This document shows, piece by piece, positions 26,784 to 32,489 of a stretch of DNA of 40,301 bases; the stretch's first letter is position 1; each line of letters begins with the position of its first letter. This DNA comes from Rhodovulum robiginosum (GTDB lineage: Bacteria > Pseudomonadota > Alphaproteobacteria > Rhodobacterales > Rhodobacteraceae), in NCBI RefSeq assembly GCF_003944755.1, contig NZ_RWGU01000049.1, positions 344,671 through 384,971 of the forward strand, read 5' to 3'. Below the pieces are notes generated by a model. That model searched no databases. It had not been told where the DNA came from and was given only the letters and a program-made list of their open reading frames with translations. The position numbers and the translations under genes are program-made.

Positions 26784-27653
26784 TCAGAGGAGCGCCGGCA
26801 GGCTGGAGCGCAGACGCGCCCAGCCGCCGGGTTGCCAGCCCAGCGCGCGCATCCGCGCACAGTCCATCGCGCTGACCGGGCTGTCGGCGGGCGCGGGCAG
26901 GGGGGCGGTCAGGCCCTCGTGCCGGGCCACCAGTGCCAGCAGGTCGTGGCGGTCGAGCACCAGGTCGGAGAGGTTGACGGGCCTGCCCGCCACCGCGCCG
27001 GGCGCGGCCATGCGCACCAGGCGCGCGGCGGCGGCGAGGTCGTCGCCATGCACCTCGGTCCCCCGGCGCGGCGCGATGGGCCGGCCGGCGCGAAAATCGT
27101 CGAAGAGATCTGCCCATTTGTGCCGCTGCCCGGGGCCAGCGGGCCCGTAGACGCCCGTGGCGCGCAGCGAAACCGGCGCAAAGCCGGGCCCGGCCAGGGC
27201 AAAGAGCGCCTGCTCGGCCTGCCATTTCACCTGGCCGTAGAGCGTATCGGGCTGCGGCGCCATGGCCTCGGTCAGCACGGTGCCGGGCGGGTAGGCGCCG
27301 TAGACGGCACGCGAGGAGAGAAACAACAGCCGCTCGACCCCCGCCGCCCGCGCCGCCTCGAAAAGCGCCACCGACCCGTCCAGATTGGCGCGCTGGAACC
27401 CGGCCGGGTCGTCCCCCTCGCCACCGCGATAGCGGCCGGGGACATGGGCGAAGGCGCAGTGGATGACCGCCGCCACCCCGGCGAGGTCGGGCCGGTCGCC
27501 CAGCGTGTAGGGGCGATGCGCCACGGCCGCCGAAAAGAACCCCGCGGGCGGCGGACGGCGCGTCAGCACGGTGACGGGCTCGCCCCGCGCCAGCGCCTCT
27601 TCGACGAAGAAGCGACCGACGAGGCCGGTGGCGCCGGTGACGGCCAGGCTCAT
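26784..27653 (-). CDS. sqdC: sulfolipid biosynthesis reductase-like protein SqdC
   Basis: An extended short-chain dehydrogenase/epimerase of 289 residues. It has the nucleotide-binding TGATGLVG at residues 6-13, the catalytic LLFLSSRAVYG strand, and Tyr139-xxx-Lys143 in YGQVKW. It is the third gene of sqdB-sqdD-sqdC, the order known in Rhodobacter sphaeroides. There SqdC is needed for normal sulfoquinovosyl diacylglycerol synthesis, and mutants accumulate a sulfoquinovosyl-dihydroxyacetone compound. The identification rests on family plus position. The exact reaction is not established. It overlaps sqdD by four bases. Confidence 0.85.
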   Translation of the reverse strand: MSLAVTGATGLVGRFFVEEALARGEPVTVLTRRPPPAGFFSAAVAHRPYTLGDRPDLAGVAAVIHCAFAHVPGRYRGGEGDDPAGFQRANLDGSVALFEAARAAGVERLLFLSSRAVYGAYPPGTVLTEAMAPQPDTLYGQVKWQAEQALFALAGPGFAPVSLRATGVYGPAGPGQRHKWADLFDDFRAGRPIAPRRGTEVHGDDLAAAARLVRMAAPGAVAGRPVNLSDLVLDRHDLLALVARHEGLTAPLPAPADSPVSAMDCARMRALGWQPGGWARLRSSLPALL

Positions 27654-28485
27654 GCGGCGGCAGGGGCGGGCAGGGTGGCCGGGTCGGGAATGCCCTCGCC
27701 CCGCTCATAGGCGCGCCAGAGCTCGATCAGGGGGCGCAGGCGGTCGGCCTTGGCGTGGTCCTGCCAGGGCTTTTCGTACTGGAAATGCAGGACGCGGATC
27801 TCGGGCCAGCTCCACAGTTCGGGCAGGTTGAACCAGACATATTGCAGCATGTTGTCAAAGACCGGCAAGCCGTGCCAGCCGGGAAAATAATCCTGCAAGA
27901 AGGTCTGGTCGGTGCGCCGCCAGAACGCGCCGGGCGCGTCGAGCCGGGCGAGCATCGCGTCGAACGTGCCTGCCGAGGGCCGCGCGGTGAAGACGCCGGA
28001 ATTCATCCGGTGAAAATCGGCGAGACCTTCGTAGACGTTGGGCGCGGCCGAGAACTCGGGGTAGTCGAACAGCCGGTCGATGGTCTGCAGAACCAACGTG
28101 TCTGCGTCGAGGAACACGACGCGGTCGTAGTCGAGCTGCCAAAGCCGCAGCTTGCAGAAATTGTCGAGCGGCGTGTGAAAGGCGGGCTTTTCCCCCTTGG
28201 TAAAGGGGGCGAGCCCGTGCAGCCGGTCGCGCGCATGGGCCGCGTTGAACGCGGACGAGGTCGGCAAGAGGTCGGTTTCCACCAGCCGCGCGCCGAGGCC
28301 GGCGAGCGGCGCCAGCGCCTCGGACCCCACGCCGCCGGTGTGCAGGACGCAGATGTCGGCCGCCGTGCCCGTCCGTTTGAGCGAGCGCACCAACGCCTTG
28401 GCGCCCAGCGCGAAATCGGCGTTGGTGACCAGCGTCACATAGGCGTCGCGGTGGCCCGCCGGCGCGGCGGGCCTGAGCCCATCGG

Positions 28486-28489
<4 letters not shown>
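27650..28489 (-). CDS. sqdD: sulfolipid glycosyltransferase SqdD (GT8, glycogenin-like)
   Basis: A protein of 279 residues of glycosyltransferase family 8. The start AYVTLVTNADFALGAKALVRSL is the typical GT8 first strand. The metal-binding DxD is Asp128-Ala-Asp130 in VVFLDADTLVL. An FHRMNSGVF acceptor-loop segment and a late HFQYEKPW (second metal-ligand His) complete the fold. In Rhodobacter, SqdD is the presumed transferase moving sulfoquinovose from UDP-sulfoquinovose to its acceptor. It overlaps sqdB and sqdC by four bases each, so the three genes are translated together. Confidence 0.9.
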
Positions 28490-29703
<1,214 letters not shown>

Positions 29704-29983: not shown

Positions 29984-31618
29984 ATGCCACATCATCCGTT
30001 TCGCCTGAGTTTCGTCGTTCTGTCGACAGTCCTCGCGCTGGCCGGGGCGGCCGTCGCACAAGACGCGACCAAGGCCACCGGCAGCACTGCAGATCATTCC
30101 AAATTCAAGGAATTGCAGAAGGATTTTCAATCCGGCCCCGAGGTCACGGAGGCCTGCTTGGGCTGCCATACCGAAGCCTCCAAACAGGTGATGCATTCGG
30201 TCCACTGGAAGTGGGAGTTCGAGAACCCCACCACCGGGCAGCTTCTGGGAAAGAGCCATGTGCTCAACTCCTTCTGCGGCAACGTCGCGTCGAACGAGGC
30301 GCGCTGCACCTCGTGCCACACCGGCTATGGCTGGACCGACATGAGCAGCCCGCCGCCGGCCGACGAGGCCGCGGTCGATTGTCTGGTGTGCCACGACAAT
30401 TCCGGTCAATACACCAAGCTCGCCACCGGCGCCGGACACCCGCCGCTGGAAGCCAAGGGAAAGACCATCACCGGGGCCGATGCCTGGGTCGTCGATCTGA
30501 AGCAAGCCGCGCAAAGCGTGGCCGAACCGACCCGTGAAAACTGCGGCGGATGCCATTTCTACGGCGGCGGCGGCGATAACGTAAAGCACGGCGACCTGAG
30601 TTCGGCGCTCTACCACCCGACCAAGGAGGTTGACGTGCACATGGCCCAGGACGGGCTGAACTTCACCTGCGAGACCTGTCACCATTCGGACAGGCACATC
30701 TTCGCGGGCTCGCGCTACGACGTGCACGCGACCGACCCGGAGGGCACCGGCAAGCCGGGCGTCATGCGCAAGGACGTGGCCACCTGCGAAAGCTGCCACG
30801 GCACGACGCCCCACGACATGCTGACCGTGACCGGCATCAAGCTGAACGACCACACTGACCGCGTGGCCTGCCAGTCGTGCCATATCCCCGAATTCGCCCG
30901 GGGCGGCGTGGCGACCAAGACCCGCTGGGACTGGTCGACCGCCGGCAAGATGGATGCCGAAGGCCACCCGCTGCACCTGAACGAATACACCCAGGGCAAC
31001 GGCAAGGAACTGCATACCTACCTCGCCACCAAGGGTGATTTTGAATATGGCGAGGACGTGGTGCCCTATTATTCCTGGTTCAACGGCCAGGTCGACTACA
31101 CCACCGCCGACCAGAAGATCGACCCCTCGAAAGTGGTTGAGATCAACAAGATCTCGGGCAGTTCCGGGGATGGCCGTTCGCGGATCTGGCCCTTCAAGCG
31201 GATGGAGGGGCGTCAGGCCTATGACAGCGGCCTCGACCATCTGGTCTATTCCAACGTCTGGGGCCCGACCACCGACACCGCCTACTGGACCAATTTCGAT
31301 TGGGGCAAGGCGATCGCGGCGGGGATGAAAGCCGCGGGTGCCGAGTATTCGGGCGAATACGGATTCGTCGACACCTACATGTACTGGCCGATCACCCATA
31401 TGGTCGCGCCCGCCGCCGACGCGCTCGACTGTCGGGAATGCCATGCACAGGATGGGCGGCTGGCCAATCTCGCGGGGGTTTATCTGCCGGGCTCGAACCC
31501 CTTTAGCTGGGGCGGGCTGATCGGTATCGCCTTCTTCGTCGCCATGGCTGGCGGCGTGTTGTTGCACACCACGCTTCGGATCTTCACCCGCGGCGGGAAG
31601 GGAGGACATCATGACTGA
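29984..31618 (+). CDS. octaheme c-type cytochrome, tetrathionate reductase (Otr) family, membrane-anchored
   Basis: A 544-residue multiheme protein. It has a signal peptide to about residue 25, then eight CxxCH motifs starting at Cys58, 108, 133, 187, 229, 268, 296 and 483, and one transmembrane helix near 507-533 with a short basic cytoplasmic tail. The segment around heme 2 (NSFCGNVASNEARCTSCH followed by TGYGW) and the wide gap before heme 8 fit the Otr family. In Shewanella Otr a Lys replaces water at the active heme; Lys90 upstream of heme 2 is a candidate here. Shewanella Otr reduces tetrathionate, nitrite and hydroxylamine in vitro. Unlike that soluble enzyme, this one is anchored and overlaps a cytochrome b gene by eight bases, suggesting quinone-linked electron flow. 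GGAGGAG precedes the ATG. Confidence 0.9.
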   Translation: MPHHPFRLSFVVLSTVLALAGAAVAQDATKATGSTADHSKFKELQKDFQSGPEVTEACLGCHTEASKQVMHSVHWKWEFENPTTGQLLGKSHVLNSFCGNVASNEARCTSCHTGYGWTDMSSPPPADEAAVDCLVCHDNSGQYTKLATGAGHPPLEAKGKTITGADAWVVDLKQAAQSVAEPTRENCGGCHFYGGGGDNVKHGDLSSALYHPTKEVDVHMAQDGLNFTCETCHHSDRHIFAGSRYDVHATDPEGTGKPGVMRKDVATCESCHGTTPHDMLTVTGIKLNDHTDRVACQSCHIPEFARGGVATKTRWDWSTAGKMDAEGHPLHLNEYTQGNGKELHTYLATKGDFEYGEDVVPYYSWFNGQVDYTTADQKIDPSKVVEINKISGSSGDGRSRIWPFKRMEGRQAYDSGLDHLVYSNVWGPTTDTAYWTNFDWGKAIAAGMKAAGAEYSGEYGFVDTYMYWPITHMVAPAADALDCRECHAQDGRLANLAGVYLPGSNPFSWGGLIGIAFFVAMAGGVLLHTTLRIFTRGGKGGHHD

Positions 31619-32324
31619 CGCGACCAACGCCCATGACGGCGATCCGCAGGTGGAAACCTGCCCCGACTGCGCCGAGCGCACGGTGCTGGTCTACCCCAAA
31701 TTCGAAAGGCTCTGGCACTGGTCCCAGGCGGCCTCGATCATGGCGCTGTTCTTTACCGGGCTGGCGATGAACGGGATCCATGACCTGATCAGCTTCGAAA
31801 TGGCGGTGAAGATCCATACACTGGTGGCGCTTGCTCTGTTGCTGCTCTGGGTGTTCGCGACGTTCTGGCTATTTACCACAGGCACTTACAAGGTTTTCCT
31901 GCCGCGAATGTTCGGCCTTCTGAAGGTGGCGCGCTACTATGCCTACGGCGTGTTCAAGGGCGAGCATCACCCCTATCAGAAAAGCCTGACCCAACGGCTG
32001 AACCCGCTTCAGGCGCTGGCCTACTCGGCGCTCAAGACGGTGATCTTCCCGATGGTCTGGGGCACCGGGCTGGTCTATCTGACCTACAATTTCTGGGAGA
32101 CGCTGCCGAATGCGCCGTTCTGGCTGGAGGTGGTTGCCAACCTGCACCTTGCGGTGGCCTATTTCGTGGTGGGCTTCGTGATCTTGCACATCTACCTGCT
32201 GACCATCGGCCATTCGTTCCGCGAAGGTGTGCGGCCCATGGTCGTGGGGACCGAAAAGGTCGCCCTGACACCCGAGCAGGAAGCCTATATCGAACGTCAC
32301 GAACGCTGGCGCCTGGTCGACTGA
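31611..32324 (+). CDS. b-type cytochrome membrane subunit paired with the octaheme protein
   Basis: An integral membrane protein of 237 residues from the cytochrome b561/Ni-Fe hydrogenase b-subunit group. About four helices carry His residues placed for two b hemes: His36 in RLWHWSQAASI, a His in VKIHTLVALAL, and NLHLAVAYFVV plus ILHIYLLTIGHS in the last helix. The N-terminus has an unusual CPDC (residues 17-20) before the first helix, which could bind a metal. The start lies inside the octaheme gene (8-base overlap), so the two are made together. It probably exchanges electrons between the quinone pool and the octaheme protein. A strong terminator follows at 32347. Confidence 0.9.
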   Translation: MTDATNAHDGDPQVETCPDCAERTVLVYPKFERLWHWSQAASIMALFFTGLAMNGIHDLISFEMAVKIHTLVALALLLLWVFATFWLFTTGTYKVFLPRMFGLLKVARYYAYGVFKGEHHPYQKSLTQRLNPLQALAYSALKTVIFPMVWGTGLVYLTYNFWETLPNAPFWLEVVANLHLAVAYFVVGFVILHIYLLTIGHSFREGVRPMVVGTEKVALTPEQEAYIERHERWRLVD

Positions 32325-32346
32325 CAGTGCCAACGGGTCGAGCCGG

Positions 32347-32377
32347 AAAACGCCGGGCCCCGGGGCCCGGCGTTTTT
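32347..32377 (+). terminator. terminator of the octaheme-cytochrome b operon
   Basis: Arms 32347-32361 and 32362-32376 are perfectly complementary (15 bp; the central bases must form the loop), with flanking A-run and T-run. It could also work on the minus strand. Confidence 0.9.
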
Positions 32378-32489
32378 CATTGGCTTCGGTCCCGATCTTG
32401 GGGCGGCCCGGGGCCGGGGATGGCCGGCGGGCTGGTCCCCAGCAGACCGGCCGAAACCGGTTACGGCCTCCCGCGGTCTTGGACACCGC

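Follow-up and report, generated by a model that had tools for sequence, protein, structure and literature searches.

An octaheme cytochrome c of the Otr family with a membrane tail and its own cytochrome b in Rhodovulum robiginosum

We examined a 40,301-nucleotide stretch of the Rhodovulum robiginosum genome (contig NZ_RWGU01000049.1, positions 344,671 to 384,971; hereafter the window), in which two overlapping genes encode an octaheme c-type cytochrome of the Otr family that ends in a membrane helix and a cytochrome b with four membrane helices. In the genomes sampled, this anchored pair is the usual form of the Otr family. We propose, with moderate confidence, that the pair is a two-subunit oxidoreductase acting between quinone and a sulfur substrate in the periplasm (tetrathionate or thiosulfate, for example) and built like formate dehydrogenase-N and hydrogenase-1. 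An earlier note on this DNA had read the two genes as a membrane-anchored octaheme reductase with its own cytochrome b, and had made that reading depend on a lysine- or open-ligated heme and on the co-occurrence of the two genes in other genomes.

The octaheme protein and its cytochrome b

The octaheme protein matches TIGR04315 with 605.8 bits (E 5.1e-182; cut-off 375), carries eight CXXCH motifs and has as its closest fold the Shewanella oneidensis octaheme tetrathionate reductase (OTR; PDB 1SP3), in agreement with the Otr-type identity first given to it; PF11783 covers its C-terminal half (224.7 bits). By sequence, 1SP3 is its sole relative in the PDB (phmmer E 1.1e-101), a result repeated with a profile of 53 sequences, and a structure search with the predicted model found 1SP3 (TMq 0.68, 38% identity) and no other match below E 0.001. 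A review table lists one member of TIGR04315 that is annotated in GenBank as a selenoprotein (PMC13188914). The MccA/SirA octaheme sulfite reductases have a heme site of the CX15CH type (PMC7096707), and the NrfA/ONR ammonifying nitrite reductases have a CXXCK heme (PMC12142623). In contrast, all eight hemes of the window protein are of the CXXCH type, and neither an MccA/SirA family nor a CXXCK family appeared when the protein was scanned against NCBIfam.

Counted along the alignment with 1SP3, residues K201, C98 and D198 of the window protein correspond to K153, which we take to be a heme ligand, and to C64 and D150, and all three are invariant in a 53-row alignment (A1; columns K173, C70 and D170). 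The equivalent of K201, in line with the lysine-ligated heme called for by the note, is present in 136/136 loci, which comprise 112 loci, among them the 81 close-kin loci described below (79 by pattern, 2 by eye), and 24 others (23 by pattern, 1 by eye). The NxFC pattern around the equivalent of C98 is kept in 110 of the 112. Lysine ligation of a heme has been stated for the Shewanella enzyme (PMC4476040), in which heme II is the catalytic heme (PMC4484225).

The Shewanella enzyme shares with the window protein its family, the eight CXXCH motifs, the fold and these three residues, but it has neither a tail helix nor a cytochrome b of its own, and the window protein has both. The 57 residues that follow the last heme include a hydrophobic helix (Kyte-Doolittle maximum, 2.04; a helix also in the predicted model) and a basic end, and the helix bears out the membrane anchor proposed earlier. 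Late in this helix sits an HxxxR motif, whose H and R are invariant in A1. The motif was found in 130 of 131 tail-anchored loci (108/108 and 22/23); the sole exception, L122, has kept the His and lost the Arg. The four tail-less Otr proteins in the 112-locus pattern check are without it.

The partner is a b-type cytochrome, as the note had it: it matches PF01292 with 76.8 bits (cut-off 30.1), and its model contains four long helices. Its residues H36, H69, H179 and H193, predicted to ligate two b hemes, align with H18, H57, H155 and H169 of E. coli FdnI, presumably the heme ligands of that protein. The closest folds are those of FdnI and HyaC, and the architecture is similar as well, because FdnH/FdnI and HyaA/HyaC likewise combine a periplasmic redox subunit that has a C-terminal helix with a four-helix diheme cytochrome b; E. 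coli fdnH and fdnI overlap by 8 bases as well. The periplasmic parts of formate dehydrogenase-N and hydrogenase-1, however, carry Fe-S clusters where the window protein carries hemes, and the tail helix of FdnH, which anchors formate dehydrogenase-N, reads ...AGLIFHYIGI... at the place of HxxxR and thus matches the His but not the Arg. The best NCBIfam match of the cytochrome b is the cytochrome subunit of PhsABC (NF011582, PhsC), but its 89.9 bits fall under the cut-off of 204, so that it is not a member, and no molybdenum subunit is present at the window locus.

The note had also drawn attention to an N-terminal CPDC motif in the cytochrome b. The motif is there, but it is confined to the clade of the window (9/81 loci, one of which has CPGC), and we rejected it as a general functional element. 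A possible tenth locus, L024, was discarded because the regular-expression match falls in a wrongly extended open reading frame (ORF). One locus labelled Chromatiaceae (L009, whose 6.5 kb contig shares its sample series with L005) has an Otr protein 71% identical to that of the window and the cytochrome b motif of the window clade; it is possibly misbinned.

Pairing and fusion across genomes

The close-kin set consisted of the best 80 of 322 relatives found in genome contigs, together with the window's own locus. A cytochrome b related to that of the window immediately follows Otr in 81/81 of these loci, which is the co-occurrence that had been set beforehand as a test; two of the loci (L028 and L072) have it divided between two frames. 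The pairing is beyond chance. The 8-base overlap is retained in 53 of 78 related loci, counted from the nearest ATG. Because the 81 loci are close kin, a phylum-wide sample of 398 Pseudomonadota genomes was drawn, in which 67 genomes match Otr at E 0.001 and 45 exceed the cut-off, in 54 places, all of which were retrieved (L001 and L085-L137). A tail helix is present in 49 of the 54 members. The statement that Otr proteins are soluble, therefore, holds for the Shewanella enzyme but not for the family as sampled. A cytochrome b is located downstream of, or fused to, 48 of the 49 tail-anchored proteins, and the one unpaired locus (L130) comes from a genome with two copies, the other of which is paired. 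The pair also occurs on plasmid records of Paracoccus ferrooxidans (L083) and Photobacterium sp. DA100 (L084).

None of the five tail-less Otr genes (L091, L093, L099, L104 and L118) stands beside a separate cytochrome b of this kind. The association between tail and cytochrome b (48/49 versus 0/5; Fisher p 1.9e-6) is overstated by this p value, because it reflects few independent changes: in a 45-row tree, four of the tail-less genes make up a single clade (100/99), L118 not being among the rows. Since the tree is midpoint-rooted, which form came first is left unsettled. Three of the five, from genomes of one family (L139-L141), are preceded by genes for a monoheme cytochrome c and a DUF3373 protein, with no cytochrome b of this kind within 8.5-9 kb, an arrangement that appears Shewanella-like. 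The other two, L099 and L118, adjoin a multiheme protein that is fused to a cytochrome b.

Several unusual relatives were encountered. In L138 (855-6353), as in L118, a tail-less Otr gene has as its neighbour a gene in which a multiheme protein and a PF01292 cytochrome b are fused, and in L138 two PF04143 sulfur-transport proteins follow, one of them with a rhodanese domain. The protein encoded in L121 (2359-4023) belongs to the Otr family; it has nine CXXCH motifs, and extra sequence is inserted ahead of the lysine-bearing segment. L142 (2674-5459) lacks such a cytochrome b and contains two adjoining proteins with heptaheme motifs; the second of these has a weak resemblance to Otr (E 2e-11), and partial matches of a similar kind occur in many genomes of the 398-genome sample.

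In three loci (L120, L122 and L135), Otr, the tail helix, the cytochrome b and a PF00072 receiver domain are encoded in one open frame, and in 15 more (L108, L111, L113, L116, L123-L129 and L131-L134) the receiver domain is attached to the cytochrome b alone. Altogether, a receiver domain is found at the C-terminus of the cytochrome b in 18 of the 48 paired loci, representing five families; 17 matches exceed the Pfam cut-off, and the match in L116 is broken by the contig end. The three full fusions were drawn from three genome families, and as these are draft genomes, a frame error is possible in any single one. The fusions argue strongly that Otr and the cytochrome b are parts of one complex. 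Their order would fit an Otr domain in the periplasm, with the ends of the cytochrome b and the receiver domain in the cytoplasm. No related paper on the combination of octaheme protein, receiver domain and cytochrome b was found in the open-licence literature.

Clustering of 38 neighbourhoods returned nothing recurrent beyond Otr, the cytochrome b, antisense ORFs and local gene order; the small sets of neighbours, each from 3-8 loci, belong to general families as judged by eye. Among 10 neighbours of L084 and 10 of L051, L074 and L075, there was no sulfur or nitrogen operon.

The locus in the window

Re-reading of the ORFs gave the same coordinates, frames and 8-base overlap for the two genes as the earlier note (Table 1). 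A hairpin followed by a T run is likely to terminate the two-gene unit, although it is absent from the list produced by a simple terminator scan. A promoter scan returned a single match, on the minus strand and of no use. On the minus strand at 26784-29703 lie divergent genes for a UDP-sulfoquinovose-synthase-like epimerase, a family-8-type glycosyltransferase and a second epimerase, perhaps for glycolipid synthesis. Membership of the pair in a sulfolipid operon was rejected, given that the synthase-like gene is divergent and scores 332.9 bits against a cut-off of 575. Membership in a mepK operon was rejected also: the MepK gene that flanks the pair is on the other strand, and the MepK-type neighbours in 41/81 loci are read as inherited gene order.

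Table 1. Positions of the features of the two-gene unit in the window
Feature	Position	Strand	Basis or remark
Octaheme c-type cytochrome, Otr family, 544 aa, tail-anchored	29984..31618	+	TIGR04315, PF11783, 1SP3
Sec-type signal peptide	29984..30061	+	By inspection: hydrophobic N-terminus ending AAVAQ, no twin arginine
CXXCH 1 (C58)	30155..30169	+	Motif scan
C98, non-heme cysteine	30275..30277	+	C64 of 1SP3; invariant in A1
CXXCH 2 (C108), expected catalytic heme	30305..30319	+	Motif scan; role by heme II of Shewanella OTR
CXXCH 3 (C133)	30380..30394	+	Motif scan
CXXCH 4 (C187)	30542..30556	+	Motif scan
K201, position of the Lys heme ligand	30584..30586	+	K153 of 1SP3, counted along alignment
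CXXCH 5 (C229)	30668..30682	+	Motif scan
CXXCH 6 (C268)	30785..30799	+	Motif scan
CXXCH 7 (C296)	30869..30883	+	Motif scan
CXXCH 8 (C483)	31430..31444	+	Motif scan
C-terminal membrane helix, residues 509-536, with HxxxR (H528, R532)	31508..31591	+	Predicted model (model residues 481-508)
Stop/start overlap of the two genes, 8 bases	31611..31618	+	ORF coordinates
Cytochrome b subunit, PF01292, 237 aa, four membrane helices	31611..32324	+	Pfam and predicted model
CPDC, clade-specific N-terminal motif of cytochrome b	31659..31670	+	Motif scan
H36, H69, H179, H193, predicted ligands of two b hemes	31716..32189	+	Invariant in 50-sequence alignment A2
Likely terminator: hairpin, then T run	32345..32378	+	-29.4 kcal/mol, z -4.99

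Mechanism, substrate and meaning

In the complex that we propose, the Otr subunit would be exported unfolded, receive its eight c hemes in the periplasm and be held at the inner membrane by its C-terminal helix, which would pack on the cytochrome b subunit. The cytochrome b probably connects the octaheme enzyme to the quinone pool: its two b hemes, predicted to be stacked, would form a transmembrane path for electrons, with a quinone site towards the cytoplasmic face at one end and the chain of c hemes at the other. We expect catalysis to take place at the lysine-ligated heme and to involve the conserved residues K201, C98 and D198. The substrates are most likely sulfur compounds with S-S bonds (tetrathionate, thiosulfate or a relative). 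The most likely direction is the oxidation of quinol and the reduction of a periplasmic sulfur oxidant; we rank reduction first because electron transfer from quinol to tetrathionate is downhill and that from thiosulfate to ubiquinone is not. The role might be in redox balance or detoxification alongside Sox-type sulfur metabolism.

The evidence for the substrate leans to sulfur over nitrogen oxides, and the hosts of the pair lean towards sulfur metabolism. Of 198 genomes sampled from the family, 13 have an Otr match (12 above the cut-off and one broken by a contig end); SoxB exceeds its cut-off in 12 of these 13, compared with 127/198 in the whole sample (p 0.022), and in the Pseudomonadota sample the counts are 13/45 versus 60/398 (p 0.009), p values that ignore kinship and multiple tests. 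The window's own genome encodes SoxB (844 bits), and a profile search of it detected no DsrA. In lucinid symbionts, otr adjoins soxYZ (PMC11237559), and purple sulfur bacteria conserve the homologues of an A. vinosum pair made up of a cytochrome b561 and an octaheme cytochrome c, which is a candidate for the same family (PMC6374484, on Chromatium okenii). A list of Thioclava heme proteins includes this octaheme protein, to which the passage in question assigns no role (PMC9226611).

We consider it unlikely that the pair reduces nitrite or hydroxylamine with quinol, whether for detoxification or for ammonification. The Shewanella OTR does reduce both compounds and has been proposed to function in nitrite reduction through STC (PMC4484225). 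However, a profile search of the window's own genome, in which NarG was not searched for, detected no NrfA and no cd1 nitrite reductase, and the NirK and NapA models matched only far under their cut-offs. Nor were NirK (0/13 versus 24/198) and NapA (2/13 versus 28/198) in excess in the Otr genomes, neither count differing from chance at this n of 13.

The complex might instead run in reverse, like formate dehydrogenase-N, oxidizing a reduced periplasmic sulfur compound (thiosulfate to tetrathionate, or one derived from sulfide) and delivering the electrons to the quinone pool. We regard this as possible but somewhat doubtful. To judge from record titles, the hosts include many sulfur oxidizers (Rhodovulum, Thioclava, Paracoccus, Sedimenticola and Leucothrix), the SoxB excess fits such a function, and FdnI and HyaC, the closest folds, belong to quinone-reducing enzymes. 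Still, the tetrathionate/thiosulfate couple (about +0.2 V) lies above ubiquinone (about +0.1 V), and the reaction would be uphill unless a more reducing substrate were used; furthermore, the characterized relative is named for reduction. The A. vinosum pair, as cited in PMC6374484, is upregulated on sulfide, which speaks for the reverse direction.

A further explanation is that the pair serves as an electron conduit or redox relay that has no small physiological substrate of its own and feeds soluble c-type cytochromes, with the receiver variants acting as redox sensors. The eight hemes, the lack of conserved neighbours and the 18 receiver-domain loci would suit such a relay. Nevertheless, the retention of the lysine and of the active-site cysteine pattern would be needless in a mere wire, and the pair in the window has no receiver domain; we consider this explanation quite improbable.

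Several points weigh against the quinol-dependent reduction of a sulfur compound that we favour. The AlphaFold model of Otr, built without hemes, has a mean pLDDT of 67.3, with values below 50 for most of residues 163-216, including the lysine, and is too weak around K201 to confirm the geometry of lysine and heme 2. The side of the membrane assigned to the quinone site would follow from analogy with the known complexes. SoxB is enriched only modestly, it is a common gene in the host family, and it is missing from one genome that has Otr (G409). In the 38 clustered loci, no sulfur gene was a recurrent neighbour of the pair. The upregulation of the A. vinosum pair on sulfide suits oxidation at least as well as reduction, and the Shewanella OTR accepts nitrite and hydroxylamine besides tetrathionate (PMC4484225).

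The pair had been put forward as a possible undescribed complex, which is correct in part. A cluster of Otr and cytochrome b561 has already been reported for Ignavibacteriae Ch128a, with membrane helices and electrons thought to come from quinone (PMC7509429); this is the same pairing in another phylum, known from one genome description (2020) and similar by description. An Otr-family cytochrome is also quinone-linked by a membrane module in a system of an Fe-S protein, a HybB-like protein and an octaheme cytochrome c, but there a Tat-dependent Fe-S protein bears the anchor and the subunit in the membrane is heme-free (PMC10924467). In the open-licence papers searched, we found no biochemical study of the tail-anchored Otr form. 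As far as these searches reach, the HxxxR of the tail, the distribution of the pair and the receiver-domain fusions are new.

Knowledge of Otr has been built on one soluble enzyme, to which electrons arrive through STC (PMC4484225). If most members are anchored to a cytochrome b of their own, the electron route would lead straight from quinone rather than through CymA/STC, and the route inferred from Shewanella, and possibly the substrate, would not be transferable to many sulfur-metabolizing hosts. We suggest, tentatively, that the anchored pair is a widespread and undercharacterized enzyme linked to quinone, that the soluble Otr of Shewanella derives from it or is a side form, and that in some lineages the complex, with a receiver domain fused on its cytoplasmic side, may be a transmembrane device that ties Otr electron flow to a phosphorelay. 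The receiver-domain fusions point to a connection of signalling with respiration. The pair is a two-gene unit without further conserved parts and is, hence, an easy target for a first test.
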